A stretch of 64,000 bases of DNA, from contig NZ_CP061035.1 of assembly GCF_016743815.1 (NCBI RefSeq), positions 2,234,501 to 2,298,500 on the forward strand. The letters run 5' to 3'. Within the stretch, counting starts at the first letter, position 1. Each line of letters begins with the position of its first letter. The position numbers and the translations under genes are program-made. The DNA is from Sphingomonas aliaeris (GTDB lineage Bacteria > Pseudomonadota > Alphaproteobacteria > Sphingomonadales > Sphingomonadaceae). Below, in pieces: positions 40,620 to 56,769 of this stretch. The notes beneath the pieces were generated by a model that saw only the letters and a program-made list of their open reading frames with translations, searched no databases and was not told the DNA's origin.

Positions 40620-41618
40620 TTGGACGAACGAGCGACCAGCGAGACCAACCTGCCGTTGCAGATAGTTCTCGCCAATCCGCGCGGCTTTTGCGCCGGCGTG
40701 GTCCGCGCCATCGATATCGTCGAACGCGCGCTGGAACGGGAACAGGCCCCCGTCTACGTCCGGCATGAAATCGTCCACAACCGTCATGTCGTCGACGACC
40801 TTAGTCGCAAGGGCGCGGTGTTCGTCGAAGAACTTTCGGAGATTCCTGAGGGCGCGTTGACGATCTTCAGCGCGCACGGCGTTTCGAAAGCGGTCGAGAC
40901 CGAAGCCGCGGCGCGCAGCCTGCCGGTGATAGACGCTACCTGCCCGCTCGTCACCAAAGTCCATATCCAGGGCCGGCGTTACGCCCGGTCGAACCGGACA
41001 TTGGTGTTGATCGGACATGACGGTCATGCCGAGGTTGAAGGCACGATCGGTCAGGTGGATGCCCCCGTTCATCTCGTCTCCACCGCGGCCGACGTCGCCG
41101 CGCTGCCGATCCCGCGCGATACGCCGCTGGCCTATGTCACGCAGACGACGCTCAGCGTGGACGATACGCGGACCGTGATCGCGGCCTTGGGCGATCGGTT
41201 CAGCGACGTCATCGGTCCCGACGTCTCCGAAATCTGCTACGCCACGCAGAACCGCCAGACGGCGACGCGCGATCTCGCGCGCGTCAGCGACCTGCTGATC
41301 GTCGTCGGCGCCGCAAACAGTTCCAATTCGCGGCGTCTGCGGGAAATCGGCGTGGAGATGGGCCTGCCCAGCTATCTCGTGGACGATGGTGCCGGGGTCG
41401 ATCCGGCATGGCTCGACGGCGTTTCCACGGTCGGCGTCACCGCTGGCGCATCCGCACCCGATGCGTTGGTCGACAGCGTCATCGCCGCGCTGGGCGCGCT
41501 TCGCGACGTTCGCGTTTCCCAGCTCGATGGAATAGAGGAGACCGTGGAATTCAGCCTGCCGCCCGAACTGCGGCACCAAACGACGCGCATGACACGCTCC
41601 GCAGGACGAACCGTATGA
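40620..41618 (+). CDS. ispH: 4-hydroxy-3-methylbut-2-enyl diphosphate reductase IspH (LytB)
   Basis: Last enzyme of the MEP pathway, making IPP and DMAPP with a 4Fe-4S cluster. The 332-aa protein has the three cluster cysteines in [24 protein letters not shown] and [10 protein letters not shown], plus [16 protein letters not shown] and [11 protein letters not shown]. The start is a TTG at 40620 ([16 protein letters not shown]), with AGGAAAAGGG upstream; the nearby ATG at 40586 is out of frame. The gene overlaps hpnH at ATGA, tying isoprenoid supply to hopanoid side-chain synthesis in one transcript. Some hopanoid producers keep a second ispH elsewhere. Confidence 0.95.
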
Positions 41619-42760
41619 CCCTTCCTCTTTCCCCGTTGCTGCGGATCGGCGCCTACACGCTGAAGAACCACATCAAGGGCGGCAAATACCCGCTCGTTCT
41701 GATGCTGGAACCGCTGCTGCGCTGCAATCTGGCTTGCCCCGGCTGCGGCAAGATCGACTATCCCGACGCGATCCTGAACCAGCGGCTCAGCTATGAGGAA
41801 TGCATGGACGCGATCGAGGAATGCGGTGCGCCCGCCGTCTCCATCGCCGGTGGCGAACCCCTGCTCCACCGCGACATGCCCCGGATCGTGCAAGGATATA
41901 TCGCGCGGAAGAAATTCGTCATCCTGTGCACCAATGCGTTGCTGATGAAGAAGAAGATCGGCGACTATAAGCCGTCCCCTTTCTTCACCTGGTCGATCCA
42001 TCTGGATGGCGACAAGGGCATGCACGATCACGCGGTCGATCAGGACGGGACGTACGAAGTCGCGATCGATGCGATCCAAATGGCGAAGGACGCGGGCTTC
42101 CGCGTGCAGGTCAATTGCACCGTATTCGACGGCGCGAGTTCGGACCGGCTGGCGGCGTTCTTCGACACGATGGAGCAGATGGGCGTCGAGATCACGATCT
42201 CCCCCGGCTACGCCTATGAACGCGCGGCGGATCAGGAACATTTCCTAAACCGCACGCGGACCAAGCAATTCTTCCGCGACGTGTTTGCGAAAGGCGATGG
42301 CGGCAAGGCCTGGACCTTTACCAACTCACCATTGTTCCTCGACTTCCTCGCCGGCAACCAGACGTACGAATGCACGCCTTGGTCGATGCCGCTCAAGACC
42401 GTCTTCGGCTGGCAGAAGCCGTGTTACCTCGTCGGCGAAGGCTATGTTCAGTCGTTCGCCGAATTGATGCAGGGCACCGATTGGGACCAATACGGCGTCG
42501 GCAAGTACGAGAAATGCGCCGACTGCATGGTGCATTGCGGCTTCGAAGGCACCGCCGCGACCGATTCGATCCGCCACCCGCTCAAGATGTTCGGTATCGG
42601 CCGGAAGGGCGTCCGCACTGATGGCCCGATGGCGCCCGACATCGACATCTCGAACCAGCGCCGCGCGGAGGACGTCCACTCGACCCACGTCGAACGCGAA
42701 CTGGCCCGCATCAAGGAAACCGACCCGGAAGGCTTCAAGCGGGTCCAACGCGCCGCCTGA
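41615..42760 (+). CDS. hpnH: Adenosylhopane synthase HpnH (radical SAM)
   Basis: Radical S-adenosylmethionine enzyme (381 aa) that attaches adenosine to the hopene skeleton to give adenosylhopane, the first step of extended hopanoid synthesis. The cluster motif is CNLACPGCG with C37, C41 and C44; [14 protein letters not shown] and [20 protein letters not shown] follow, as in known HpnH. A C-terminal cysteine cluster ([14 protein letters not shown]) is present. The ATG at 41615 overlaps the ispH stop. After the gene comes a stretch of tandem repeats (42821-42943), then the convergent hpnG-ended operon. Confidence 0.96.
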
Positions 42761-43726: not shown

Positions 43727-45657
43727 TCACATGCCGTGCGCGATGCGATCCGAATTCGATTTCTTCAGGTTGCGATAGCGCGCCATCGCCCAAAGCGGGA
43801 AATATTTCGGATAGCCGTGATAGCGCAGGTAGAAGACGCGCGGAAATCCGCCGCCGGTAAACATCTCCTGTCCCCACAGCCCGTCGGGCTCCTGATGCTC
43901 GGCCAGCCACGCCACCCCGCGCGCCACCGCCTCGCTGTCGACCTCACCCGCGGCCATCAGCCCGAGCAGCGCCCAGCCGGTTTGCGAGGCCGTCGATGGC
44001 GCGGGCCGGTGGCCGGTGCGATCCAGCGCATAGCTGTCGCAATCCTCCCCCAGCCTCCATCTGGATTCTGCACCGCGCGCAGCCACGCCACCGCTTTCGC
44101 GATCATCGGATGATCATGCGCCAACCCCGCCGCATTCAGCGCGCACAGCACCGACCATGTGCCATAGACATAGTTCACGCCCCATCGCCCGAACCAGCTT
44201 CCGTCCGGCTCCTGCTCCCGCTCCAGCCAGGCCAGTCCCGCACGTATCCGCGGGCTATCGCGCTCGCCCAGTTGCGCCAGCATCGACACGCACCGCGCGG
44301 TGACGTCGGCGGTCGGCGGGTCCAGCAACGCGCCGTGATCCGCGAAGGGCAGGTTGTTCAGGTACGTATAGGCATTGTCCGCATCGAACGCCCCCCATCC
44401 CCCATCGCGCGACTGCAGCCCGACGGTCCATTCCGCGCCCCGTTCGATCGCCTCGTCATAATCGCCACCCCGCCCCCGCGCGCGGTCCATCGCCATCACG
44501 ACGACCGCCGTATCGTCGAGATCGGGATAATGGTCGTTATTATACTGGAACGCCCATCCGCCCGGCCGGACCCCCGGACGTTCCTCCGCCCAGTCGCCCT
44601 CGACATCCAGCACCTGTCGCGGCTTCAGCCAGTGCAGCGCGCGGTCCGCCGCCGCCTCGTGCTCGCCCCCCGCCTCCAGCATCGCATGCGCCGCGAGCGC
44701 GGTATCCCACACCGGCGAGACGCAGGGCTGGCAATAGGCCTCGTCCTCCCCCACCACCAGCAACCGCTCGATCGATTCGCGCGCAACCGCCCGGCGCGGA
44801 TCGTCGGCTCCGATGCCGAGGCAATCGAACATCATCACGCTGTTCGCCATCGCCGGATAGATCGCGCCCAGCCCGTCCACGCCGTTCAGCCGCTCCGCCA
44901 CCCAACCCGCGCACCGCTCCAGCGCACTCCGGCGCAGCCGCTTCGGCCACAGCCCGTCCCCCGCCTTCAGCACGCGGTCGAGCAGCCCGAACCCCTTCGT
45001 CCAGACCCATTTCGGATCCGCCGCCTTCGACCCCAGCCGCACCGCCTTCCCGGTATACAGCTCGTCGACCAGCACATTCCGGGGGTTCCGCGCCAGCGGC
45101 CGCATCGCCCCCAGCACCAGCAGCGGCACCACCACGGTCCGCGCCCAATAGGACATCTTGGACAGGTGGATCGGGAACCAGCGCGGCAGCAGGATCAGTT
45201 CCGGCGGCATCGTCGGCACGCTCGACCACGGCCCGGCGCCGAACAAGGCCAGCTGGATGCGGGTGAAGACGTTGCTCGCCGCCGCCCCGCCCTCCGCCAG
45301 GATCGCCACCCGCGCCGCCGCCATGTGCGGCGCATCGACGGCATCCCCGATCATCTTCAGCGCGTAATAGGCTTTCACGCTCGCGCTCACGTCGAACCCG
45401 CCGCCGTGGAACAGGCCCCATCCGCGATGATCCGCCGACTGGATCCGGCGCAGATACCGCCCGATCTTGCCCTCCAGCGCCGCATCCACCGGCTCGCCCA
45501 GATAATGGCGCAGCAGGACATATTCCGCCGGGATCGTCGCATCCGCCTCCAGCTCGAACACCCAATGCCCGTCCGCCCGCTGCGCCGCCGCCAGCGCCGC
45601 ACTCGCCCGGTCGATCGCGCCTTCGATCGTCGTCATCGTATCGGGAAACGCGTGCAT
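43727..45657 (-). pseudogene. shc: Squalene-hopene cyclase, frameshifted near the 3' end in a C/G run
   Basis: Cyclises squalene to hopene, the core step of hopanoid synthesis. From ATG 45657 (MHAFPDTMTTIEGAI) the frame shows the catalytic DLDDTAVV acid motif, FQYNNDHYPDLDDTA, SRDGGWGAFDADN and WFGRWGVNYVYGTWSVL, and reaches QNPDGGWG at about 44055. There a run of five Cs (44047-44051) should probably be six: adding one base gives EDCDSYALDRTGHRPAPSTA, then TGWALLGLMAAGEV and FYLRYHGYPKYFPLWAMARY, ending at 43727. The restored protein is about 643 aa, normal for SHC. As written it would lose the last 110 residues, including conserved active-site loops. A sequencing indel is the simplest explanation. 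Confidence 0.9.
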
Positions 45658-45666
45658 CACCACCGA

Positions 45667-46911
45667 TTACCCCGCCTGCGCGCCAGTCGCCAGCGCGGCA
45701 GCAGTCTCACCAGAGCGCAGCGCCCCCTCGATCGTCGCCGGCAGCCCCGTCTGCGTCCAGTCCCCCGCCAGAAACAGGTTCCGCCAGCGCGTCGCGGCGG
45801 GCGGACGCAGCGCGTCCTGCTCCGGCGTCGCGGCGAAGGTGGCGCGCTTCTCCTTCACGATCTGCCACGCAGGCATCGGCGCATCGATATGAAGCGCGGC
45901 GCAGATGTCCTCCCAAAAGATACCGGCCAACTCGCCACGATCCATGTCGACCAGCCGATCCGCCCCGCTGACGGTCACGGACAAGCGCTCGGGAAACGCG
46001 AAAATCCACTCTGCCGTCCCCCCGATCACGCCCAGCATCCGCGGCGCTGCGTCAGGCGCGGCGAACGCGAAATGCCCGTTCACGATCGCGCGATGATCCT
46101 CCGGCACCCGCAGACCGGGAACGAGTCCTGCGGCGATCCAGGACGGCACGGCAAGGATCACCGCCTCATCCTCCGCGACCTCCTCCAAACCAGCCCCCCA
46201 GTCCAGCCCCGCCACCCGGTCACCGGCAAAACCGATCGACCGCAAACGCCGGCCCGTCCCGACCGCGACGCCCTGCGCCGCCAGCCAGTCGATCGCCGGA
46301 TCCACGAACGCCGCCGACAGCGTCGGCTCCGCGATCAACGGACGCATGGCCAGTCCGCCCTTCGCCACCGTCTCGCGCAGCACGTTACGCGTCAGCACGG
46401 CCGAACCTTCACCCGCCGGCATGTTCAACACCGCCAGCAACACGGGCTCCAGGAATCGGTCCCACACTGGCCCGATCGTCGTGAAATGATCGTCGACCCG
46501 GCCTTTTCGCGCCATCAGCAAGCGACCGATCGGCAGATAGTCGACCACCGAACTGCCGGGGACGCGACGGGCGGACGATGCGATCCACCACGGCACACGC
46601 CCATCGTTGATCCGCACCGTCCAATGCTTGCCGCTGCCAAGATCGCAGAAATCGAAGTCCGAATGCTCCGGCCCCGTCAGGGTCGCACCCGCCCCGATCG
46701 TATCGCGAAACCGCCCGACCGCGTCATTGCCAGACAGGACGATGTGATTGCCGTTGTCGATCGTCTGCCCGATCGCCGGGTCGAAATAGGACCGGCATCG
46801 CCCGCCCGCATGCGCCGCCGCATCGTCGATGCGAACCGCGACTCCGGCCCGCCGCAACGCGACCGCCGCGGACAAACCTGCCAGTCCGGCACCGGCGATC
46901 GTCGCCCGCAC
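45667..46911 (-). CDS. hpnE: Hydroxysqualene dehydroxylase HpnE
   Basis: FAD-dependent enzyme (about 414 aa) that reduces hydroxysqualene to squalene, completing the HpnC/D/E route. The dinucleotide-binding motif is ATIAGAGLAGLSAAVALRRAG at the N-terminus. IDNGNHIVLSGNDAV, NVLRETVAKGGLAMRPL and the C-terminal LFLAGDWTQTGLPATIEGALRSGE are typical of the amine-oxidase-like HpnE family. The start is uncertain: a GTG at 46911 gives the shortest sensible protein, while a TTG at 46920 overlaps the hpnD stop as TTGA. It is followed 10 bases later by shc. Confidence 0.93.
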   Translation of the reverse strand: MRATIAGAGLAGLSAAVALRRAGVAVRIDDAAAHAGGRCRSYFDPAIGQTIDNGNHIVLSGNDAVGRFRDTIGAGATLTGPEHSDFDFCDLGSGKHWTVRINDGRVPWWIASSARRVPGSSVVDYLPIGRLLMARKGRVDDHFTTIGPVWDRFLEPVLLAVLNMPAGEGSAVLTRNVLRETVAKGGLAMRPLIAEPTLSAAFVDPAIDWLAAQGVAVGTGRRLRSIGFAGDRVAGLDWGAGLEEVAEDEAVILAVPSWIAAGLVPGLRVPEDHRAIVNGHFAFAAPDAAPRMLGVIGGTAEWIFAFPERLSVTVSGADRLVDMDRGELAGIFWEDICAALHIDAPMPAWQIVKEKRATFAATPEQDALRPPAATRWRNLFLAGDWTQTGLPATIEGALRSGETAAALATGAQAG

Positions 46912-46916
46912 GAAGC

Positions 46917-47789
46917 TCAACGGCGCACGCTCAGCCGCACGACGGTCCACAGCAGTTCCGGTTTAGACATCTTCACGCGGGTACGCGGCGGCTGCCATCC
47001 GATCGCCTCGGTCCGCGCCAATACCCTCGCATAGACCGCTTCCATCAGGCGCGGCGCCAACAGGTGACCAGCGGGCCGCCCGGCAAGGATCGCGCGGGCT
47101 TCGTCATAATGCCGGTGCGCGATCTCCGCGACCTGCCGGCAGACACCGTCGATCCGCGAATCCCCCACCACCTCGATTGGGGTCGTGAATTCTATCCCCG
47201 CCGCGGTGATCGCCTCGCCGGGCAGGTATACGCGACCGATCGCCGCATCCTCGTCCAGATCGCGCAGGATGTTGGTATATTGCAACGCCCGGCCCAGATG
47301 GAATGCCAGCGCAATGCCCGGTTCCTCGTCCATCCCGAATACGCGCACCGACAATCGCCCGACGGCCGACGCGACCCGGTCGCAATACAGGTCCAGAACA
47401 GCAGACGGGGGCCACCGCAGATCGCGATCGACGTCCATCGCCATCCCGTCGATCACCGCCTGAAAATCTTCCTGACGCAGGTCGAACCGGCGCACCGCCT
47501 GCGCGACCAATGCGGCCTGTCCCGGATCCTGTCCGGCATACAGCGCGGCGATGTCCCGTCGCCATACGTCCAGCGCCGCCGCACGCTCCGCCCGATCACG
47601 CCGATCGTCATCGGCGATGTCGTCCACCAGCCGGCAAAAGCCATAGATCGCGTACATCGCCTCGCGCTCCGCCTTCGGCAGCACGCGCATCCCGGCATAG
47701 AAGGAGCTTCCGGACACCTGCTTGTGCAGCGCCCCGGGGTCGAATCCGGGTTCATGCCGTGCGTCGCAAAAGCATCGGCAAGGCCGCAC
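46917..47789 (-). CDS. hpnD: Presqualene diphosphate synthase HpnD
   Basis: Condenses two farnesyl diphosphates to presqualene diphosphate. The trans-prenyltransferase motifs are present: FCRLVDDIADD, MAMDVDRDLRW, YCDRVASAVGRLSVRVFG and RALQYTNILRDLDEDA. The open frame reaches back to a GTG at 47789, overlapping hpnC by 38 bases with an unlikely N-terminus. An ATG at 47755 would overlap the hpnC stop as ATGA, as other junctions here do, but is out of frame. Adding one base to the C/G run at 47732-47739 joins it as MNPDSTPGALHKQVSGSSFYAGM, a natural HpnD start. I therefore suspect a one-base deletion near 47735. A GTG at 47717 is another in-frame option. Confidence 0.9.
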   Translation of the reverse strand: MRPCRCFCDARHEPGFDPGALHKQVSGSSFYAGMRVLPKAEREAMYAIYGFCRLVDDIADDDRRDRAERAAALDVWRRDIAALYAGQDPGQAALVAQAVRRFDLRQEDFQAVIDGMAMDVDRDLRWPPSAVLDLYCDRVASAVGRLSVRVFGMDEEPGIALAFHLGRALQYTNILRDLDEDAAIGRVYLPGEAITAAGIEFTTPIEVVGDSRIDGVCRQVAEIAHRHYDEARAILAGRPAGHLLAPRLMEAVYARVLARTEAIGWQPPRTRVKMSKPELLWTVVRLSVRR

Positions 47790-48597
47790 GCGCCGCCAGC
47801 AACGCCGCCTCCGCCTTGCGGTGATGAACGCGTTCGCTCAGCGGATCGAACCGTTCGAGCCGATCGACAAGGCTTTCCGCCAGCCGCTGGATCACGGCGA
47901 CTTCCGCTGCCAGCTTCCGGTCGCGGATCGACGCGGCGAACGGCGCCGACACCGCAAGCAAACTGCGTGTGCGCCCGGCTAGTGCGACGATCGTATCGCG
48001 CAACCCCGGCGATGCATGATCCCTCGCCAGATCGGCCTCGGTCGCTCTGTGTTCGGCAAGTATGTCCAGCGGCAGGTAGATGCGCCGGATCGTCCGGTAA
48101 TCCTTCCCGCAATCCTGCAAGTGATTGATCACCTGCAACGCCGCACACAGGGCATCGTTCGCCGGCCAGATCGCGCGATCCTCACCGTGAACGTCCAGCA
48201 CGAACCGCCCGACCGGCATCGCCGAATACCGGCAATAGTCCATCAGGGCGGCCCAATCGGCACAACGATCCACCGTCACGTCGCGCTCGAACGCGGTCAA
48301 CAGGTCGCCCGCATGCACCGGGTCCAGCCCGCGTTCGGCCATCACCGCCCGCAGGTCCAATGCCTCAGCCGCGCCGGCCGCGTCGCCCTCAAGTCCCGCA
48401 CGCATCCGCGCCAATCGATCCAGCTTGTCGGTCGCGCTCGCCTGTTCGTGATCCGCAATGTCGTCGGCGGCGCGGGCGAAGCGATAGAATGCCATCACCG
48501 GCGCACGGTGCTTCGCGCTCAACAGGAAACTGGCGACGGGGAAGTTCTCGTCGCGATGCCCCTTGCCCGACGCGAGATTGGCGACTTGCCCGCTCAT
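47752..48597 (-). CDS. hpnC: Hydroxysqualene synthase HpnC
   Basis: Converts presqualene diphosphate to hydroxysqualene. The protein (281 aa) is a squalene-synthase-family enzyme: SGKGHRDENFPVASFLLSAKHRAPVMAFYRFARAADDIADHE, YCRYSAMPVGRFVLDVHGE, ALCAALQVINHLQDCGKDYRTIRRIYLPLDIL. The GHRDENFPVAS opening is characteristic of HpnC. The start at 48597 overlaps the hpnB stop at ATGA; longer in-frame codons belong to another frame of hpnB. It is third in the hpnA-to-hpnG operon. Confidence 0.95.
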   Translation of the reverse strand: MSGQVANLASGKGHRDENFPVASFLLSAKHRAPVMAFYRFARAADDIADHEQASATDKLDRLARMRAGLEGDAAGAAEALDLRAVMAERGLDPVHAGDLLTAFERDVTVDRCADWAALMDYCRYSAMPVGRFVLDVHGEDRAIWPANDALCAALQVINHLQDCGKDYRTIRRIYLPLDILAEHRATEADLARDHASPGLRDTIVALAGRTRSLLAVSAPFAASIRDRKLAAEVAVIQRLAESLVDRLERFDPLSERVHHRKAEAALLAARAALPMLLRRTA

Positions 48598-49718
48598 GTG
48601 GCTTTCGCCTGAGATCTGCCTTTCCACATCCCGCCGCGCCCCCGATGATATTGCCACGCGGATAGCAAGGTGCACCCGGCGTAAAAAGCTGCGATTGCCG
48701 GCAGGGCCAGCCCCCATAATGGCGAACGTCCATAGAAGCGCAGCATCGGCTGAAAGGCCAGCGCCATCAGTGCGTAGGCGGCCAATCCGAAAATTCGGGT
48801 CCAACCCGCCCCGGATATCGCAAGCACCGGGGGAACGCCGTAGACGAGCCCAAGGCCCAGCAGCGTGCCGAACAACAGGATCGGCGAATAGCCCAGTTGC
48901 GCATAGGCCGATCGCGATATCATCGCCGCGATCGTATCGACCGTATCATACGGCCGGATGCTGCGTGCCCGGTCCGTCAGCCCCAGCCAGATCGGCCCCT
49001 GCTTCTTCAACGCTGCACCCAACGCGCAATCGTCGATCAGCGCGGCCCGGATTGCCGCGATCCCGCCCGCCGCCGCCAACGCGTCTCGCCGGACGAGCAT
49101 GCAGCCGCCCGCCGCAGCGCCGATACCGCCGCGCCGGTTCACCCGGCCGAACGGGTAGAGCATCTGGAAAAAGAATACGAAGGCGGGGATCAGCGCGCGT
49201 TCCGCCAGACTGACGCAGCGGAGTTTCGCCATCAGCGATACGAGGACCAGACCATCGCCTTCGGCACGCCGGACGAGGCTGGAAAGCGTGTCGGGCGCAT
49301 GCGCGATGTCGGCGTCGGTCAACCACAGATAGGTGGGTTCCGCCCCGGCGCGCTCCACTCCTTGCGCCACCGCCCACAATTTGCCCGTCCAGCCGCGCTT
49401 TAGCGGGCGACCTGTCACCACCTCCAGCCGATCGGCGCGATCGAGCGACCGTGCGATCGACACTGTTCCATCGCTGCTGCCATCATCGATCAGGATCACC
49501 CGCAACGCGCCGGGATACTCCTGGCCCAGCACGCTGCCGATCGATGCGGCGATCACCGCCGCCTCGTCACGCGCCGGGACGATCGCCGTGACCGCCGGCC
49601 AGCGGGGCGGGGGTGGCGGAAGCCCTTGCGTGTCGCGCTCCCGCGTCAACCAGAAGCCATGCCGGGCAAAGACCAGCACCAGCCAGATGCATAGGCTCAG
49701 CACCGCGACCGCGATCAT
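48594..49718 (-). CDS. hpnB: Hopanoid-associated glycosyltransferase HpnB
   Basis: Membrane-bound family 2 glycosyltransferase-like protein (374 aa). An N-terminal helix (MIAVAVLSLCIWLVLVFA) precedes the GT-A domain: VTAIVPARDEAAVIAASIGSVLGQEYP, VILIDDGSSDGT, GWTGKLWAVAQG and LWLTDADIAHAPDTL (DxD-type metal site). Helices at the C-terminus anchor it (YSPILLFGTLLGLGLVYG). HpnB is named from conserved hopanoid clusters; the sugar or group it transfers is not firmly established. It overlaps both neighbours by 4 bases. Confidence 0.93.
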   Translation of the reverse strand: MIAVAVLSLCIWLVLVFARHGFWLTRERDTQGLPPPPPRWPAVTAIVPARDEAAVIAASIGSVLGQEYPGALRVILIDDGSSDGTVSIARSLDRADRLEVVTGRPLKRGWTGKLWAVAQGVERAGAEPTYLWLTDADIAHAPDTLSSLVRRAEGDGLVLVSLMAKLRCVSLAERALIPAFVFFFQMLYPFGRVNRRGGIGAAAGGCMLVRRDALAAAGGIAAIRAALIDDCALGAALKKQGPIWLGLTDRARSIRPYDTVDTIAAMISRSAYAQLGYSPILLFGTLLGLGLVYGVPPVLAISGAGWTRIFGLAAYALMALAFQPMLRFYGRSPLWGLALPAIAAFYAGCTLLSAWQYHRGRGGMWKGRSQAKAT

Positions 49719-50713
49719 CGGATCGCCCCGCTGGCACGGAACCAGTCGATCGCGTCCTGCACCGCCCCGGGCCACGGCCGCGCAGTATAGCCCAGCTCCG
49801 TCTGCGCCTTCGCCGAACTGAAGAACATATGGTGTGCGGCCATCCGCAGCGAATCGACCGTCAGGAACGGATCCCTGCCGGTCATTCGCGCGATCGCTTC
49901 GTTTGCGGCGGCAAACGGAAACAGTGGCCCACGGGGAAGGCGGATCGTCGGCGGCTTGCGTCCGACGCGGTTCGCGATCTCGGCCAGCATCGTGCCCAGC
50001 GCGACGTCCTGACCACCCAGGATGTAGCGCTCCCCGATCCGCCCCCGCTCCAGCGCCGCGACATGCCCCGCCGCGACATCGTCGACATGGACGAGGTTCA
50101 GGCCGCTATCGATAAAGGCCGGCATCCGGCCGTTCGCGGCCTCGACGATGATCCGCCCGGTCGGCGTCGGGCGAACGTCGCGCGGGCCGATCGGGGTGGA
50201 TGGGTTGACGATCACGGCGGGCAAGCCCTCCGCCACCATCGCCTCCACCAGCCGTTCAGCCACCACCTTGCTGCGTTTGTATGCGCCGACCGCCTGTTCG
50301 GGTGTCGCGGGACGGGTCTCGTCGGCGGGGCCGTCCGGGTCGGGGCGCAGCGTGGCGACGCTGCTGGTATAGACGATCCGCTCGACCCCGGCATCGCGCG
50401 CGGCGTCCATCACGATGCGCGTGCTGGACAGGTTGTTCCGCACGATGTCTTCGGGATCGGGCGCCCAGATGCGATAGTCGGCGGCGACGTGGAAGAGGTA
50501 TCGCACGCCTTGCATGGCTCGTGTCACGGCCGCGAAATCGCGCGCATCCCCTTCGACCAGCGTGCCGGGAAAGCCGGCCAGATTATCGCGGGTGGACGTC
50601 GCGCGGACCATCCCGCGCACGTTATGGCCGCGGGCGGACAGGATGCGGGCGACGGCCGACCCCACGAACCCGGAAACGCCGGTGACCAGGGTGATGTCGG
50701 GGCGTCTGTCCAC
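49715..50713 (-). CDS. hpnA: Hopanoid-associated sugar epimerase/reductase HpnA
   Basis: Extended short-chain dehydrogenase (332 aa) and first gene of the leftward hopanoid operon. The NAD(P) site is TLVTGVSGFVGSAVARIL, the catalytic pair is in VGAYKRSKVVAERL (YxxxK), and VNPSTPIGPRDVRPTPTGR is a typical substrate-loop motif. The start is GTG at 50713 (MDRRPDITLVTG). Only 45 bases separate it from the divergent hpnI start, so both promoters must overlap. HpnA is conserved with HpnB but its substrate is not firmly known. Confidence 0.93.
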   Translation of the reverse strand: MDRRPDITLVTGVSGFVGSAVARILSARGHNVRGMVRATSTRDNLAGFPGTLVEGDARDFAAVTRAMQGVRYLFHVAADYRIWAPDPEDIVRNNLSSTRIVMDAARDAGVERIVYTSSVATLRPDPDGPADETRPATPEQAVGAYKRSKVVAERLVEAMVAEGLPAVIVNPSTPIGPRDVRPTPTGRIIVEAANGRMPAFIDSGLNLVHVDDVAAGHVAALERGRIGERYILGGQDVALGTMLAEIANRVGRKPPTIRLPRGPLFPFAAANEAIARMTGRDPFLTVDSLRMAAHHMFFSSAKAQTELGYTARPWPGAVQDAIDWFRASGAIR

Positions 50714-50758: not shown

Positions 50759-51931
50759 GTGGGGCAGACAGTTCAGATCGCGGGCGCGACTTTCGGTTGG
50801 CTGGGCATCGCCGCCGCCGCGATCGGCATCGTCTATCAGCTCATCGGTGCACATGCCCTGCTCCGCTTTTTCTCTGCCCCGTCGCCCGCCCCCCAGCCCG
50901 ATCGGGGGCGCGACGATGCGGTCACATTGCTGAAACCGCTCTATGGCCCCGAACCAAGACTGCGCGAAAACCTCGCTACATTCCTGAACCTGGATCATGC
51001 CGGGCCGGTGCAGATGGTGTGCGGGGTGCAGCGCGCCGACGATCCGGCGATAGCCGTCGTCCACCAATTGCAAGCCGCCTATCCCGACGCCGATATCGCG
51101 CTTGTCGTCGATCCCGCCTGTCACGGTGCCAGCGGCAAGGTCTCTAACCTGATCAACATGATGGCAGCGGCGAAGCACGACGTGCTGGTGATGAGCGACA
51201 GCGACATCGCGGTCCGCCCCGATTATCTCGCACGGATCCTGACTGCGTTGGACCAGCCGGGCGTCGGCGCGGTCTCCTGTCTGTATCGCGGACGCGGCGA
51301 TGCCGGTTTCTGGTCGCGGTTCGGTGCCGCCGGCGTAACCTATCAGTTCATCATCGCCGTCGTCATCGCGGTCACGTATCGGCTCGCCCAGCCGTGCATG
51401 GGCTCGACCATCGCCTTGCGCCGAGAAATGCTGACGGCGATCGGCGGGTTCGAGCGTTTCGCCGACACGCTCGCGGACGATCACGCCATCGGGCAGGCCG
51501 TGAACGCGACCGGCGCATCGGTCGTCATCCCCCCGATGATTATTACGCACGCCTATGACGAAACATCGCTCCTTGCGTTGTGGGGGCACGAACTCCGCTG
51601 GAGCGCGACGGTGCGCGACATCGCCTTCTGGCCCTATGCCGGCGCGATCGTCTGCAACCCCCTCCCCCTCGCGGTGCTGGCCTGCCTGTACTGGCCCGTC
51701 GCCGGTTTTTGTCTGGTAATCGCAACACTTTGCGCAAGATGGCTGGTCGTCCGCGCCGTCGACTCCACCACCGGCGGCCCCGTCGGCCCGTTATGGATGG
51801 CATGGCTCCACGACCACTTCGCCTTCCCTATCTTCTTCGCCACTTTCTTCACCCGCACAGTTGATTGGCGCGGCCGCACGCTTAAAATGACAGGGAATGG
51901 CCAGGTTTCGGGCCGGGAGAAATCCGCATGA
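50759..51931 (+). CDS. hpnI: Hopanoid glycosyltransferase HpnI (ceramide glucosyltransferase-like)
   Basis: Membrane-bound GT2 enzyme (390 aa) that, in known systems, adds a GlcNAc-type sugar to bacteriohopanetetrol before deacetylation by HpnK. Landmarks are VTLLKPLYGPEPRLRENLATFLNLDH, VLVMSDSDIAVRPDYL (DxD), FADTLADDHAIGQAV and LWGHELRWSATVRDI (the QxxRW-like end motif). The start is a GTG at 50759, since the nearby ATG at 50757 is out of frame. The long open frame continuing upstream to 49613 runs antisense through hpnA and is an artefact. It overlaps hpnJ by 4 bases. Confidence 0.92.
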   Translation: MGQTVQIAGATFGWLGIAAAAIGIVYQLIGAHALLRFFSAPSPAPQPDRGRDDAVTLLKPLYGPEPRLRENLATFLNLDHAGPVQMVCGVQRADDPAIAVVHQLQAAYPDADIALVVDPACHGASGKVSNLINMMAAAKHDVLVMSDSDIAVRPDYLARILTALDQPGVGAVSCLYRGRGDAGFWSRFGAAGVTYQFIIAVVIAVTYRLAQPCMGSTIALRREMLTAIGGFERFADTLADDHAIGQAVNATGASVVIPPMIITHAYDETSLLALWGHELRWSATVRDIAFWPYAGAIVCNPLPLAVLACLYWPVAGFCLVIATLCARWLVVRAVDSTTGGPVGPLWMAWLHDHFAFPIFFATFFTRTVDWRGRTLKMTGNGQVSGREKSA

Positions 51932-53358
51932 CGCTCCGCACCTTGTTCCTGCAAGCTCCCTCCTTCGACGGGTATGACGGGGGTGCGGGCGCCCGGTATC
52001 AGATGAAGCGCGAGGTGAAGTCTTTCTGGTATCCGACCTGGCTCGCGCAGCCCGCCGCACTGGTGGAAGGATCGAAGCTGATCGACGCACCCGCGCACGA
52101 CCAGAGCTGGGACGATATCAAGCATGAGGTCGACGACCGCGATCTCGTCGTCCTGCACACGTCCACGCCCAGCTTCCGTCAGGACATCCATACCGCGGAA
52201 CTGATCAAGGCGCGCAACCCCAACATCATGATCGGCCTGATGGGCGCGAAGGTCGCGGTTGAAACGCAGGCGTCGATGGAGGCCTCTCCCGCGATCGACT
52301 TCGTCGCGCGCAACGAATTCGACTTCACCATATTGGACGTCGCCAACGGTATGCCGTTGCGCGAAGTGGATGGCATATCGTGGCGCGACGACGACGGCAC
52401 GATCATCCACAACCGCGATCGCAAGGTCGTCGAGGATATGGACAGCCTGCCGTTCGTGTCACCGGTCTACAAACGCGATCTGGTGATGGAGAAGTATTTC
52501 GGCGGTTATCTGCTCCACCCTTATGTCAGCTTCTACACCGGGCGCGGGTGCAAGAGCCGCTGCACGTTCTGCCTGTGGCCGCAAACGGTCGGCGGGCATA
52601 ATTACCGCACACGGTCGATCCCCCACGTGATCGAGGAGGTGAAATACGTCATGCGGGAAATGCCGCAGACGAAGGAAATCTTCTTCGACGACGATACGCT
52701 GACGGACAATCTGCCGCGCGTGGAAGCATTGGCACTCGAACTCGGAAAACTCGGGGTCACCTGGTCCTGCAACGCCAAGGCAAACGTCCCGTACAAGACG
52801 CTCAAAATCCTGAAGGACAACGGCCTCCGACTGCTTCTCGTCGGTTACGAAAGTGGCAATCAGCAGATCCTGCACAATATCAAGAAGGGCCTGCGCACCG
52901 ACGTCGCGCGGCAATTTACCAAGGACTGCCACGCTCTCGGCATCGTCATCCACGGCACCTTCATTCTCGGCTTGCCCGGCGAGACGGAGGAAACGATCGA
53001 AGAGACGATCAACTATGCCAAGGAGATCGATCCGCACACGATCCAGGTGTCGCTGGCTGCGCCCTATCCCGGCACGTTCCTGTTCAAACAGGCGACCGAA
53101 AACGGCTGGTTCGACGGCACCGATCATCTGCTGACGGATGACGGAAACCAGATTGCCCAACTCAGCTATCCGCATCTTCCGGCGGCGTTGATCTTCGACA
53201 AGGTCGAGGAATTCTACAAACGCTTCTATTTCCGACCGTCGAAGATCTGGTCGATCGTCAGCGAGATGCTGCGAGACTGGAATATGATGAAGCGCCGCTT
53301 GCGGGAAGGCGTCGAGTTCTTCGACTTCTTGCGTCGCCGGAAAGAGGCGAAGGCTTGA
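51928..53358 (+). CDS. hpnJ: HpnJ, radical SAM protein with B12-binding-like domain (BHT cyclitol ether formation)
   Basis: Enzyme (476 aa) that converts the amino-sugar hopanoid to the cyclitol ether in known pathways. The first 150 or so residues form a B12-binding-like Rossmann region (MTLRTLFLQAPSFDGYDGG, DLVVLHTSTPSF, IMIGLMGAKVAVE). The radical SAM core has C208, C212 and C215 in GRGCKSRCTFCLWPQ. LLVGYESGNQQIL and GTFILGLPGETEETI are standard for the class. It overlaps hpnI at ATGA. A B12 requirement would link it to the riboswitch-controlled B12 uptake operon at the left of the window, though this is inferred from the domain only. Confidence 0.92.
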   Translation: MTLRTLFLQAPSFDGYDGGAGARYQMKREVKSFWYPTWLAQPAALVEGSKLIDAPAHDQSWDDIKHEVDDRDLVVLHTSTPSFRQDIHTAELIKARNPNIMIGLMGAKVAVETQASMEASPAIDFVARNEFDFTILDVANGMPLREVDGISWRDDDGTIIHNRDRKVVEDMDSLPFVSPVYKRDLVMEKYFGGYLLHPYVSFYTGRGCKSRCTFCLWPQTVGGHNYRTRSIPHVIEEVKYVMREMPQTKEIFFDDDTLTDNLPRVEALALELGKLGVTWSCNAKANVPYKTLKILKDNGLRLLLVGYESGNQQILHNIKKGLRTDVARQFTKDCHALGIVIHGTFILGLPGETEETIEETINYAKEIDPHTIQVSLAAPYPGTFLFKQATENGWFDGTDHLLTDDGNQIAQLSYPHLPAALIFDKVEEFYKRFYFRPSKIWSIVSEMLRDWNMMKRRLREGVEFFDFLRRRKEAKA

Positions 53359-54039: not shown

Positions 54040-54870
54040 GTGGAACATGCCGCCCCCTTACCCCGACGGTTGATCGTGACAGCCGACGATTTCGGCGCCT
54101 CGGTGTCGGTCAACGAAGCGGTCGAGATCGCACATCGCGACGGCATCTTGACGGCGGCAAGCCTGATGGTCGCGGGGGATGCAGTCGATGACGCCGTTTC
54201 TCGTGCCAAGGCGATGCCTGCTTTGGGGGTCGGCCTGCATCTCGTTTTGGTCGAGGGCCGCCCCGTCCTGCCGCCGGAAAAGATTTCGGATCTGGTCGAC
54301 GCGAGCGGGCGATTCGGTACCAACATGGTACGAACCGCACTTGCGATCGCGCTGAAGCCCGCCGCCCGACGCCAACTCCGCGCCGAGATCACCGCACAAT
54401 TCGATGCCTTCGCCGCGACCGGCCTTCCACTCGATCACGTCAACGCGCACAAACACTTCCACTTGCACCCAATGATCGCCAACGCGGTCATCGAGATTGG
54501 GCGCAACTACGGAATGAAGGCGGTCCGCGCGCCATTGGAGGCGGGCGCGCCGGGGATCGAACGTTGGTGGGCGGCGCGGCTGCAACGGCGCCTGCGAAAA
54601 GAGGATATGCTCGTACCCGACCGGGTGATCGGGCTGGCCTGGACCGGCGCCTTCGATACGCCACGGATGCGCGAAGCGCTCGACACGCTCCCGCCCGGAC
54701 TCACGGAAATCTACACGCATCCCGCCACGACGGACGACTGGAACGGTGCCGCCCCCGGCTATCGCTACCGTGACGAACTCGCCGCCTTGACGGACGTTCT
54801 TGCGAAGGCCTCGATTCAGCGCGATGGAGTGATGCATGGCAACTTCTCTCGCTTCACGGACGCATCCTGA
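54040..54870 (+). CDS. hpnK: Hopanoid deacetylase HpnK (YdjC/ChbG family)
   Basis: Carbohydrate deacetylase-like protein (276 aa), thought to deacetylate the GlcNAc-bearing hopanoid made by HpnI. Metal-site motifs are RLIVTADDFGASVSVNEAV (DD), LGVGLHLVLVEGRPVLPP and VNAHKHFHLHPMI; a late motif is TEIYTHPAT. The start is a GTG at 54040 directly after an excellent AGGAGG. The gene overlaps the downstream ferritin-like gene by 35 bases, showing tight linkage. It heads the rightward set hpnK-ferritin-like-hpnL. Confidence 0.93.
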   Translation: MEHAAPLPRRLIVTADDFGASVSVNEAVEIAHRDGILTAASLMVAGDAVDDAVSRAKAMPALGVGLHLVLVEGRPVLPPEKISDLVDASGRFGTNMVRTALAIALKPAARRQLRAEITAQFDAFAATGLPLDHVNAHKHFHLHPMIANAVIEIGRNYGMKAVRAPLEAGAPGIERWWAARLQRRLRKEDMLVPDRVIGLAWTGAFDTPRMREALDTLPPGLTEIYTHPATTDDWNGAAPGYRYRDELAALTDVLAKASIQRDGVMHGNFSRFTDAS

Positions 54871-55789
54871 TCTCGAACCGCTGACGATCTCCCCCGCCAG
54901 TTTCGAGGCACCACCCCCGCCCGGCCAACGTATCCGGCTGGGGTCGCCGGAACATCGCAGCCTTTTGTCGCGCATGATGCTCGACTCGCACGATGCCTAT
55001 CGCCCCGCTCTGATCCACTGGCCCGAACTGGATGACGAGACGCGCAATCGTATCGTCAGCCTGCCGATCTGGGACATTGCGGTCCAGACCGAGGGTCGCG
55101 CGTCGATGAACGTGAAAACATTCAACGAACGCATACAGGACCCGCTGCTGCACGAGGCGATCGGGATGAACGCCTATGAGGAACGCAGGCACAAGATCGT
55201 GCTGGCCGACATGGTCCAGGCCTACGGCATAGAACTGGCACCGGAACCTGATTATGTCCGGCCGCGCGACCCGGAATTCGCCTTCATGCGCACCGGCTAT
55301 TCGGAATGTATCGACAGTTTCTTCGGGTTCGGCTTGTTCAAGCTGGCCAAGGACACCGGGTTCTTTCCCGACGAACTGATCGATACGTTCGAACCGGTGA
55401 TGCGCGAGGAAGGGCGTCATATCCTGTTCTTCGTCAATTGGGTGGCGTGGTGGCGTCGAACCATGCCGTGGTGGCGACGCCCCCTGTTCGAAGCCAAGGT
55501 GCTGCTTGTCTGGTTGTTCCTGATCGGTGAGCGGATCAGCATGGCGAAGGGGATGGGCGCCGACAATACGAAGGCGCAGGAGAATAACTTCACGCTGAAC
55601 GGGTCGAAGGAACTTGGCGTCGAGGTCACCTTCCCCGAACTCGCCCGCATCTGTTTGGCGGAGAACGATCGTCGTTTGGGCGTGTACGATCCAAGGCTGA
55701 TCCGGCCGAAATTCGTGCCCGCGATGATGCGACTGGCGTTGAAGTTCGCAGGCAAGCCCAAACCGGCACCACAGGGAGCCGCAGCCTGA
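54836..55789 (+). CDS. Ferritin-like diiron protein in the hopanoid locus, function unknown
   Basis: Protein of 317 aa without a signal peptide. It carries a full carboxylate-bridged diiron ligand pattern: E86 (VQTEGRAS), E116 with H119 (YEERRHK), E157 (YSECIDSF) and E192 with H195 (REEGRHILFF), spaced as in four-helix ferritin-like oxygenases. A tryptophan/aromatic-rich stretch (WVAWWRRTMPWWRRPL, about 202-217) and LLVWLFLI suggest membrane contact. It overlaps hpnK by 35 bases and precedes hpnL by 23 bases, so it is embedded in the hopanoid set. I do not recognise a named function. An oxygen-dependent modification of a hopanoid (hydroxylation or desaturation) is a plausible but untested idea; a plain structural ferritin is less likely given the context. 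Confidence 0.85.
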   Translation: MATSLASRTHPDLEPLTISPASFEAPPPPGQRIRLGSPEHRSLLSRMMLDSHDAYRPALIHWPELDDETRNRIVSLPIWDIAVQTEGRASMNVKTFNERIQDPLLHEAIGMNAYEERRHKIVLADMVQAYGIELAPEPDYVRPRDPEFAFMRTGYSECIDSFFGFGLFKLAKDTGFFPDELIDTFEPVMREEGRHILFFVNWVAWWRRTMPWWRRPLFEAKVLLVWLFLIGERISMAKGMGADNTKAQENNFTLNGSKELGVEVTFPELARICLAENDRRLGVYDPRLIRPKFVPAMMRLALKFAGKPKPAPQGAAA

Positions 55790-55812: not shown

Positions 55813-56769
55813 TTGCTGGCGACGCTGGTCGGGCTGGCGGCGGCGGTCTGGGCGTTCGGATCGACGGGCTTCGCAAACGTCCTTGAAGCGACTGCACGGA
55901 TCGGATCCGGCGGGTTCGTCCTGTTCTGTCTCTATTCGCTGGCCAGCTTCGTGCCGCTCGGCGCGGCGTGGCTTGCCGCGGCACCGGGCGAACCGGGGTC
56001 GCGCCTGTGTCTCTTCACCTGGGCACGCGTGTTGCGCGAGGCGGTAGCGGACCTGTTGCCATTCTCGCAGATCGGCGGGATCGTGGTCGGCACCCGGTCG
56101 CTGATGCAAAAGGGGATCGCGCCCACGCGCATCTATGCCTCGCTGGTGGTCGATATGACGACCGAAATGGCGGCGCAATTGGTGTTCACTCTGTTCGGAC
56201 TCGCCTTGATGGCGTCTATCCTGATGGGCCACGACGCGGCGGCGTTACGTCCACTCATTCTCGGCGGAACGGGCATAATGATCGCGGTAATGGCATCCTT
56301 CTTCATCGCACAGCGTCCGGCGCTGGCCCTCGCGGAACGCATTGCGGGGCATTTCCTGCCCGGCGCGGCGGGAACGATGGCCGGGCTGCTCGAAACGTTG
56401 CGAGCGACCTACGCGGATCGCAGCCGGGTGATCGCGGCGTTCGGCTTCAACCTGCTCGGCTGGATCGCCAGCGCATTCGGCGCATGGCTTGCCCTTCACA
56501 TGATGGACGTCCGCATTTCAGTGTGGTCCGTGCTGTCGCTCGAAAGCCTGATTTTCACATTGCGCAGCGTCGCTTTCGCGATCCCTGCCGCGATCGGCGT
56601 TCAGGAGGCCGCCTATGCGCTCGCCGCACCCTTGTTCGGCCTGCCAGCGGAAACGGCGCTCGCACTGTCGCTCGTGAAGCGTGCGCGCGAACTGATCATC
56701 GGCCTTCCGACTCTCCTCCTGTGGCAGGCGCAGGAAGCGAAGGCGGTCGTGGCGGCGCGGTTGCGGTAG
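55813..56769 (+). CDS. hpnL: Hopanoid-associated membrane protein HpnL
   Basis: Integral membrane protein (about 318 aa) of the lysylphosphatidylglycerol synthase/UPF0104-like family named HpnL in hopanoid clusters. Typical segments are SFVPLGAAWLAAAP, EAVADLLPFSQIGGIVVGTRSLMQKGI, DMTTEMAAQLVFTLFGLALM and AAIGVQEAAYALAAPLFGLP. The start is weak: a TTG at 55813 is the best in-frame option, since the ATG at 55796 is out of frame. In-frame codons upstream back to 55786 (LSGYARVGI...) look coding too, so the true start may lie there at a CTG or be hidden by an indel. It ends the hpnK operon; a flippase or transport role is inferred. Confidence 0.88.
   Translation: MLATLVGLAAAVWAFGSTGFANVLEATARIGSGGFVLFCLYSLASFVPLGAAWLAAAPGEPGSRLCLFTWARVLREAVADLLPFSQIGGIVVGTRSLMQKGIAPTRIYASLVVDMTTEMAAQLVFTLFGLALMASILMGHDAAALRPLILGGTGIMIAVMASFFIAQRPALALAERIAGHFLPGAAGTMAGLLETLRATYADRSRVIAAFGFNLLGWIASAFGAWLALHMMDVRISVWSVLSLESLIFTLRSVAFAIPAAIGVQEAAYALAAPLFGLPAETALALSLVKRARELIIGLPTLLLWQAQEAKAVVAARLR

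Follow-up and report, generated by a model that had tools for sequence, protein, structure and literature searches.

The DNA analysed here (the window) is a stretch of 64,000 nucleotides from Sphingomonas aliaeris, and it holds hopanoid genes on both strands. The radical SAM protein HpnH, which acts at the adenosylhopane step, was located by an HpnH search at 41615..42565 on the + strand, and Shc, HpnE, HpnD, HpnC, HpnB, and HpnA follow on the − strand (43957..50713, NCBIfam). The + strand then carries a glycosyltransferase (50759..51931, start approximate) that is assigned as HpnI by position and Pfam family rather than by an HpnI-specific model, the B12-binding radical SAM protein HpnJ (51928..53358, profile matches), HpnK (54040..54870; 344 bits where the TIGR03473 cut-off is 233), and the putative membrane protein HpnL (55813..56769, TIGR03476). 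In the window, Shc and each of HpnA, B, C, D, E, J, K, and L score above the respective NCBIfam cut-off. HpnK is described as a deacetylase in the cyclitol-ether branch (PMC12583986). The Shc gene itself (window 43730-45663, −) is split, with one frame to ~44026 and the other from ~44050; its final 107 residues, in the other frame, are 68% identical to a relative, and the split stems either from a frameshift mutation or from misassembly of the S. aliaeris genome.

Between hpnK and hpnL lies a gene for a protein of 317 aa (54836..55789, + strand), which its open reading frame, metal ligands, predicted structure, and alignments mark as a ferritin-like diiron protein of subfamily A and a candidate bacteriohopanepolyol side-chain hydroxylase. 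The frame starts with ATG, runs for 317 codons with no internal stop, and overlaps hpnK by 35 bases, and the HpnL frame starts at 55813 (TTG), 24 bases past its last base; the first-pass annotation had placed the protein at the same coordinates with the same overlap. Its GC3 is 0.75, equal to that of HpnK. Since the 681 bases that separate hpnJ from hpnK hold a gene on the − strand for a glycine-zipper protein (Rick_17kDa_Anti, PF05433; 53598-53975), the group hpnK, diiron gene, and hpnL may have its own promoter.

The first-pass annotation had also read a full set of diiron ligands in this protein, and all are present where it placed them: E86 (codon 55091..55093), E116-x-x-H119 (55181..55192), E157 (55304..55306), and E192-x-x-H195 (55409..55420), all on the + strand, with the two ExxH motifs being the only ones in the protein. 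The AlphaFold model (pLDDT 86), which answers the suggested search for a four-helix diiron site, is a ferritin-like bundle in which helices 79-97, 103-129, 146-174, and 179-209 bear E86, E116/H119, E157, and E192/H195, respectively, so that the predicted structure has the four-helix bundle with E, ExxH, E, and ExxH, one set per helix, of ferritin-like proteins. No variation at the six ligands is seen in 21 sequences (down to ~34% identity) or in a further set of 87 that were aligned, both counts with the query, and the ligands are kept in 307 of 308 database homologues, the sole exception being P0080 (285 aa), with R at position 157; the ligand conservation on which the earlier reading depended is thus borne out. 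C158, which adjoins E157, is likewise invariant in the aligned sequences. Judged from these sequences, the six-ligand pattern is beyond chance. The proposed aromatic segments are recognisable as well: the stretch W205-W226 is present, and all 48 sequences of alignment A2 keep W202, W205, W213, and W226. From that alignment and the AlphaFold model, residues 205-238 (55448..55549, +), an aromatic and basic stretch with a long helix (212-238), are a possible lipid or membrane contact.

The protein falls outside the known families that we searched. It matched no Pfam family at E 1 or E 10, no NCBIfam family at E 1, and, as P0001, no chain among the PDB sequences at E 5; the profile of A2 found two unrelated PDB chains only (E 0.33 and 0.55), and Foldseek with the predicted structure gave no match reaching E 0.001. 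Among the folds compared, the predicted structure comes nearest to R2-like ligand-binding oxidases (R2lox) and ribonucleotide reductase R2 subunits, yet both stayed short of this Foldseek threshold and neither has recognisable sequence similarity to our protein among PDB chains. In contrast to R2lox, the diiron family is confined, as sampled, to hopanoid genomes, and in contrast to the R2 subunits its distribution follows hopanoid genes. The p-aminobenzoate N-oxygenase AurF (PF11583) gave weak profile matches in 20 of the 48 aligned relatives (best E 7e-4); the diiron protein itself has no Pfam match at the E values above and so stays short of the curated cut-off. Other weak Pfam matches among the 48 members were to Rubrerythrin (10) and Ferritin_2 (7). 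One homologue, P0262, bears PF11583 and another, P0209, is named AurF in UniRef, while other database names include “ferritin-like domain-containing protein” and “aminomethyltransferase”, the latter (on P0070 and P0081) looking like a propagated label error. As optional late steps that are patchy among hopanoid makers, the radical SAM enzyme HpnP and also HpnR, HpnO, and HpnJ behave like the diiron gene, but they are radical SAM enzymes or an aminotransferase, and none is a diiron protein. The enzyme type of HpnR is taken from its NCBIfam name and those of HpnJ and HpnO from PMC12583986, which also reports HpnP, HpnR, and HpnO as patchy. The accessible portions of the literature searched (mostly non-subscription, including PMC12583986, PMC8560942, PMC6460317, PMC3910546, PMC3712917, and PMC3495753) name neither this gene nor a diiron hopanoid hydroxylase; Zymomonas ZMO0975 is named as a neighbour of the hopanoid operon without a description.

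Across genomes, the diiron gene occurs where hopanoid genes occur, with the provision that the carriers share lineages, so that the co-occurrence counts are not independent, and that relatedness is uncorrected throughout these counts and tests. In the class sample of 289 genomes, 20 matched the diiron query at E 0.001, and 18 carriers remained after G042 and G169 were dropped as weak matches of ~36 residues. Shc was found in 75 of the 289 genomes at E 1e-100 (74 over the cut-off), and in 17/18 carriers vs 58/271 non-carriers (Fisher 4e-10, uncorrected for relatedness); the sole carrier without it, G127, is 74% complete. A search for HpnH, limited to G127 and the 75 genomes with Shc, was positive in all 76, including 18/18 carriers. 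The diiron gene is therefore present in 18 of 76 HpnH genomes of this sample, and is optional among hopanoid genomes. HpnJ was found in 24 of the 289 genomes, nine of them among the 18 carriers.

Similar patterns come from narrower samples. Among 151 genomes of the genus, 15 have the diiron gene, 21 have HpnH, and 13 have both, and the two carriers without HpnH (G547 and G675) are 84% and 88% complete. When the genus set is restricted to 136 near-complete genomes (at least 90% complete, at most 5% contaminated), HpnH is found in 17 and in 13/13 carriers, and 13 of the 17 HpnH genomes carry the gene. Of the 121 genomes that represent the order of G448, seven carry the family, all with HpnH, which is uninformative because HpnH is in 99 of the 121 overall; 92 of these 99 HpnH genomes are without the family. 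In the class of G303, three of 229 genomes carry the family, the centre genome G303 included. Among 31 hpnH-bearing plasmid or chromid records, from a collection that leaves main chromosomes outside, the diiron gene is on the same record in Cupriavidus (4/4), Burkholderia (4/4), and Caballeronia (3/3), and is absent from the records of Mycetohabitans (9), Azospirillum (7), Streptomyces (2), Methylobacterium (1), and Roseomonas (1). Records of Caballeronia zhejiangensis and Paraburkholderia phymatum have the diiron gene and no hpnH. Overall, hopanoid genes are found in the carriers and the diiron gene is often among them, and in the class, genus, and named-locus samples the homologues are not widespread outside hopanoid genomes; a wide spread there would have counted against the first-pass reading.

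The neighbourhood survey that had been suggested agrees with this picture. It covers the 80 titled loci, which are the best 80 of 434 relatives and not a random sample. Other hpn genes lie in the fetched DNA at 64 of these best 80, in several orders; within 3 kb of the diiron gene, an HpnL-like match is found at 57, HpnK at 53, and HpnJ at 50 of the 80, and an HpnI-like match is present at 50 of the 80 loci. HpnL is the sole hpn match at 8 of these best 80 loci, some on short contigs, and in two cases (L085, L087) subfamily A stands alone beside hpnL with no further hpn match in the fetched DNA. Gene order varies: most sphingomonads have J-K-diiron-L, other alphaproteobacterial records have J-K-diiron-(paralogue B)-L-HpnA-HpnB-HpnC-HpnD-HpnE-Shc, Dyella and Azomonas have J-K-L-diiron with HpnA opposed, and Cupriavidus (L079) has diiron-HpnB-HpnA-HpnH-J-K-L. 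At the 16 of the best 80 loci with no neighbouring hpn gene (Paraburkholderia, Burkholderia, Rhodoblastus, Lichenicoccus, and others), HpnH is present elsewhere in the genome in all 16. HpnH was found in 23 of 24 carrier genomes tested, the exception being the genome of L049, in which an HpnL match lies beside the diiron gene. Hpn genes surround the diiron gene in G066 and G468; G037, G076, G115, and G448 (the last as locus L115) have no hpn match in ~20 kb around it, with HpnH present in the genome. The link of the diiron family to the hopanoid pathway is strong, and we are highly confident that this is a real protein family without a prior name, closely tied to hopanoid synthesis.

The taxa that have the gene coincide in part with those from which bacteriohopanepentol is reported, with two exact strains matched. 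The diiron gene is found in Acetobacter species, in Azomonas, which is kin of Azotobacter, and on a replicon of Burkholderia cenocepacia (a strain other than K56-2). According to PMC8560942, full characterisation of pentol derivatives is limited to Acetobacter, Azotobacter vinelandii, and Nostoc; the paper also gives a putative annotation of a pentol cyclitol ether in B. cenocepacia K56-2. A 2025 survey of 54 strains states that the genes for bacteriohopanepentol and -hexol are unknown, with no candidate near hpn clusters (PMC12583986). Only two strains could be matched exactly from gene to the phenotypes in Table 3 of this survey, and both are carriers and both pentol/hexol-positive, while no named strain came out as a genome-wide non-carrier. 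In Sphingomonas formosensis CC-Nfb-2 (L037), pentol plus hexol stand at 23% and unsaturated BHPs at 1%; in Gluconacetobacter diazotrophicus PA1 5 (P0242), listed there as PA 5, the values are 6% and 49%. Of the eight BHP-making Sphingomonadales in the same table, six make pentols, and the seven other than S. formosensis have 0% unsaturated BHPs. Other taxa fit less closely. Rhodoblastus sp. 17X3 (L086) carries the gene, and carbamoyl BHPs of a Rhodoblastus species are reported only as tetrol derivatives in the 2025 survey; likewise, the gene is present at L050 and L054, whose records bear the labels Rhizobiales or Hyphomicrobiales, and pentol plus hexol is 0% in 18 of the 19 BHP-making Hyphomicrobiales of Table 3 and 1% in one. 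Azospirillum has 0% pentol in Table 3, and since A. brasilense made only adenosylhopane, this value is uninformative on the hydroxylation step (PMC12583986).

The fold class, the ligand set, and the tie to hopanoid genomes and gene clusters are supported by computation. The first-pass annotation had proposed a hopanoid-modifying enzyme, either hydroxylating or desaturating, or an O2-dependent partner of HpnJ, K, or L. Because homologues are not widespread outside hopanoid genomes and the ligands are conserved, the hypothesis of a diiron enzyme that modifies hopanoids has good support, and between the two chemistries hydroxylation is favoured over desaturation by the S. formosensis profile together with the lack of unsaturation in the seven other Sphingomonadales. 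An obligate partnership with HpnJ, on the other hand, is unlikely, given that only half of the class-sample carriers have HpnJ. We consider it somewhat probable that the protein is a monooxygenase that hydroxylates C-31 of the bacteriohopanepolyol side chain, and our confidence in the exact reaction is moderate. It would serve the extended (C35) hopanoid pathway as an optional, dedicated tailoring enzyme. Two carboxylate- and histidine-bound metals, presumably Fe/Fe or possibly Mn/Fe, would be held in its four-helix bundle and activate O2, while the long apolar helix may reach the membrane-bound substrate. The methylene beside the tetrol of a bacteriohopanetetrol-type side chain (C-31) would be hydroxylated, which would yield bacteriohopanepentol along with its cyclitol ether. 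Hopanoids of the pentol and hexol type are widespread, and the diiron family, often inside hpn clusters, is a candidate for making them; if the proposal is true, diiron oxygenases that act on membrane triterpenoids would gain a new family, and these biomarkers would be tied to oxygen.

Desaturases do occur among ferritin-like diiron proteins, and the enzyme might therefore introduce the 6- or 11-double bond of unsaturated hopanoids as a ring desaturase. Unsaturated BHPs are reported in acetic acid bacteria and Burkholderia, both of which include carriers (PMC12583986 and PMC8560942), and the G. diazotrophicus profile, taken alone, fits desaturation better than hydroxylation. However, we regard this as improbable in view of S. 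formosensis, a carrier with almost no unsaturated BHPs, and of the other Sphingomonadales at 0%, even though most near-complete HpnH genomes of the genus carry the gene. The enzyme might also carry out a different oxidation, for example to a 32-oxo compound whose hydration gives the pentol, or might work with HpnI, J, and K on the headgroup, be it the cyclitol or the amino sugar. This would account for the proximity of HpnK and HpnJ at many of the 80 loci (the best of 434 relatives), and an oxidation-hydration route has been proposed in the 2025 survey (PMC12583986); nine of the 18 class-sample carriers are nevertheless without HpnJ, and we think this reading unlikely, if less so than desaturation.

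It could also be that the protein is no tailoring oxygenase and rather works with HpnL in hopanoid transport or remodelling, or guards the radical SAM enzymes through redox or iron chemistry. Among the 80 loci (the best of 434 relatives), HpnL is the most frequent neighbour and at some of them the only hpn match, which speaks for a partnership; an optional catalyst is the better fit to the patchy presence among hopanoid genomes and to six ligands conserved this strictly, and we hold such a role to be quite unlikely.

The family has two branches. A second copy, in tandem or fused, is present at 17 of the 80 loci (the best of 434 relatives), and in a FastTree tree rooted at the midpoint and read by topology alone these second copies group as a separate branch, B; at L048, L049, L051, L052, L062, and L082, A and B share a single open frame next to hpnL. 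The copy of G468 is on the B side of the tree, as are the single copies of the seven carriers in the order of G448 (L108-L114). G448 has two PF02461 (pmoA/amoA-type) genes and is therefore probably a methanotroph; PF02461 also covers ammonia oxidisers. The genus g39 of the class sample (G037, G165, G263) was considered as pmoA methanotrophs and set aside, with no PF02461 match (26 genomes searched, one match, G448), and a general role in methanotroph aminopentol synthesis was likewise rejected, with the family in so few genomes of that order. Several methanotroph genera of the Gammaproteobacteria, which probably belong to this order, are reported to contain aminotetrol and aminopentol (PMC6460317). 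With most of its HpnH genomes lacking the family, a second route to the extra hydroxyls probably exists, and the diiron family would not be the sole route to pentols.

The next hydroxyl (C-30, giving the hexol) may be the work of subfamily B, which often stands in tandem with A or is fused to its end. We tentatively suggest, as a possibility rather than an expectation, that a two-enzyme diiron system sets the number of side-chain hydroxyls, with A leading to pentols, B to hexols, and B acting alone in a few pmoA-type-bearing gammaproteobacteria. If true, the A/B system would be the enzymes behind the pentol/hexol geochemical biomarker series, and these biomarkers would mark O2-dependent chemistry in these lineages. 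In the tree, the copy of Rhodoblastus sp. 17X3 (L086) falls, together with L105, among gammaproteobacterial and burkholderial copies, a position that suggests gene transfer.
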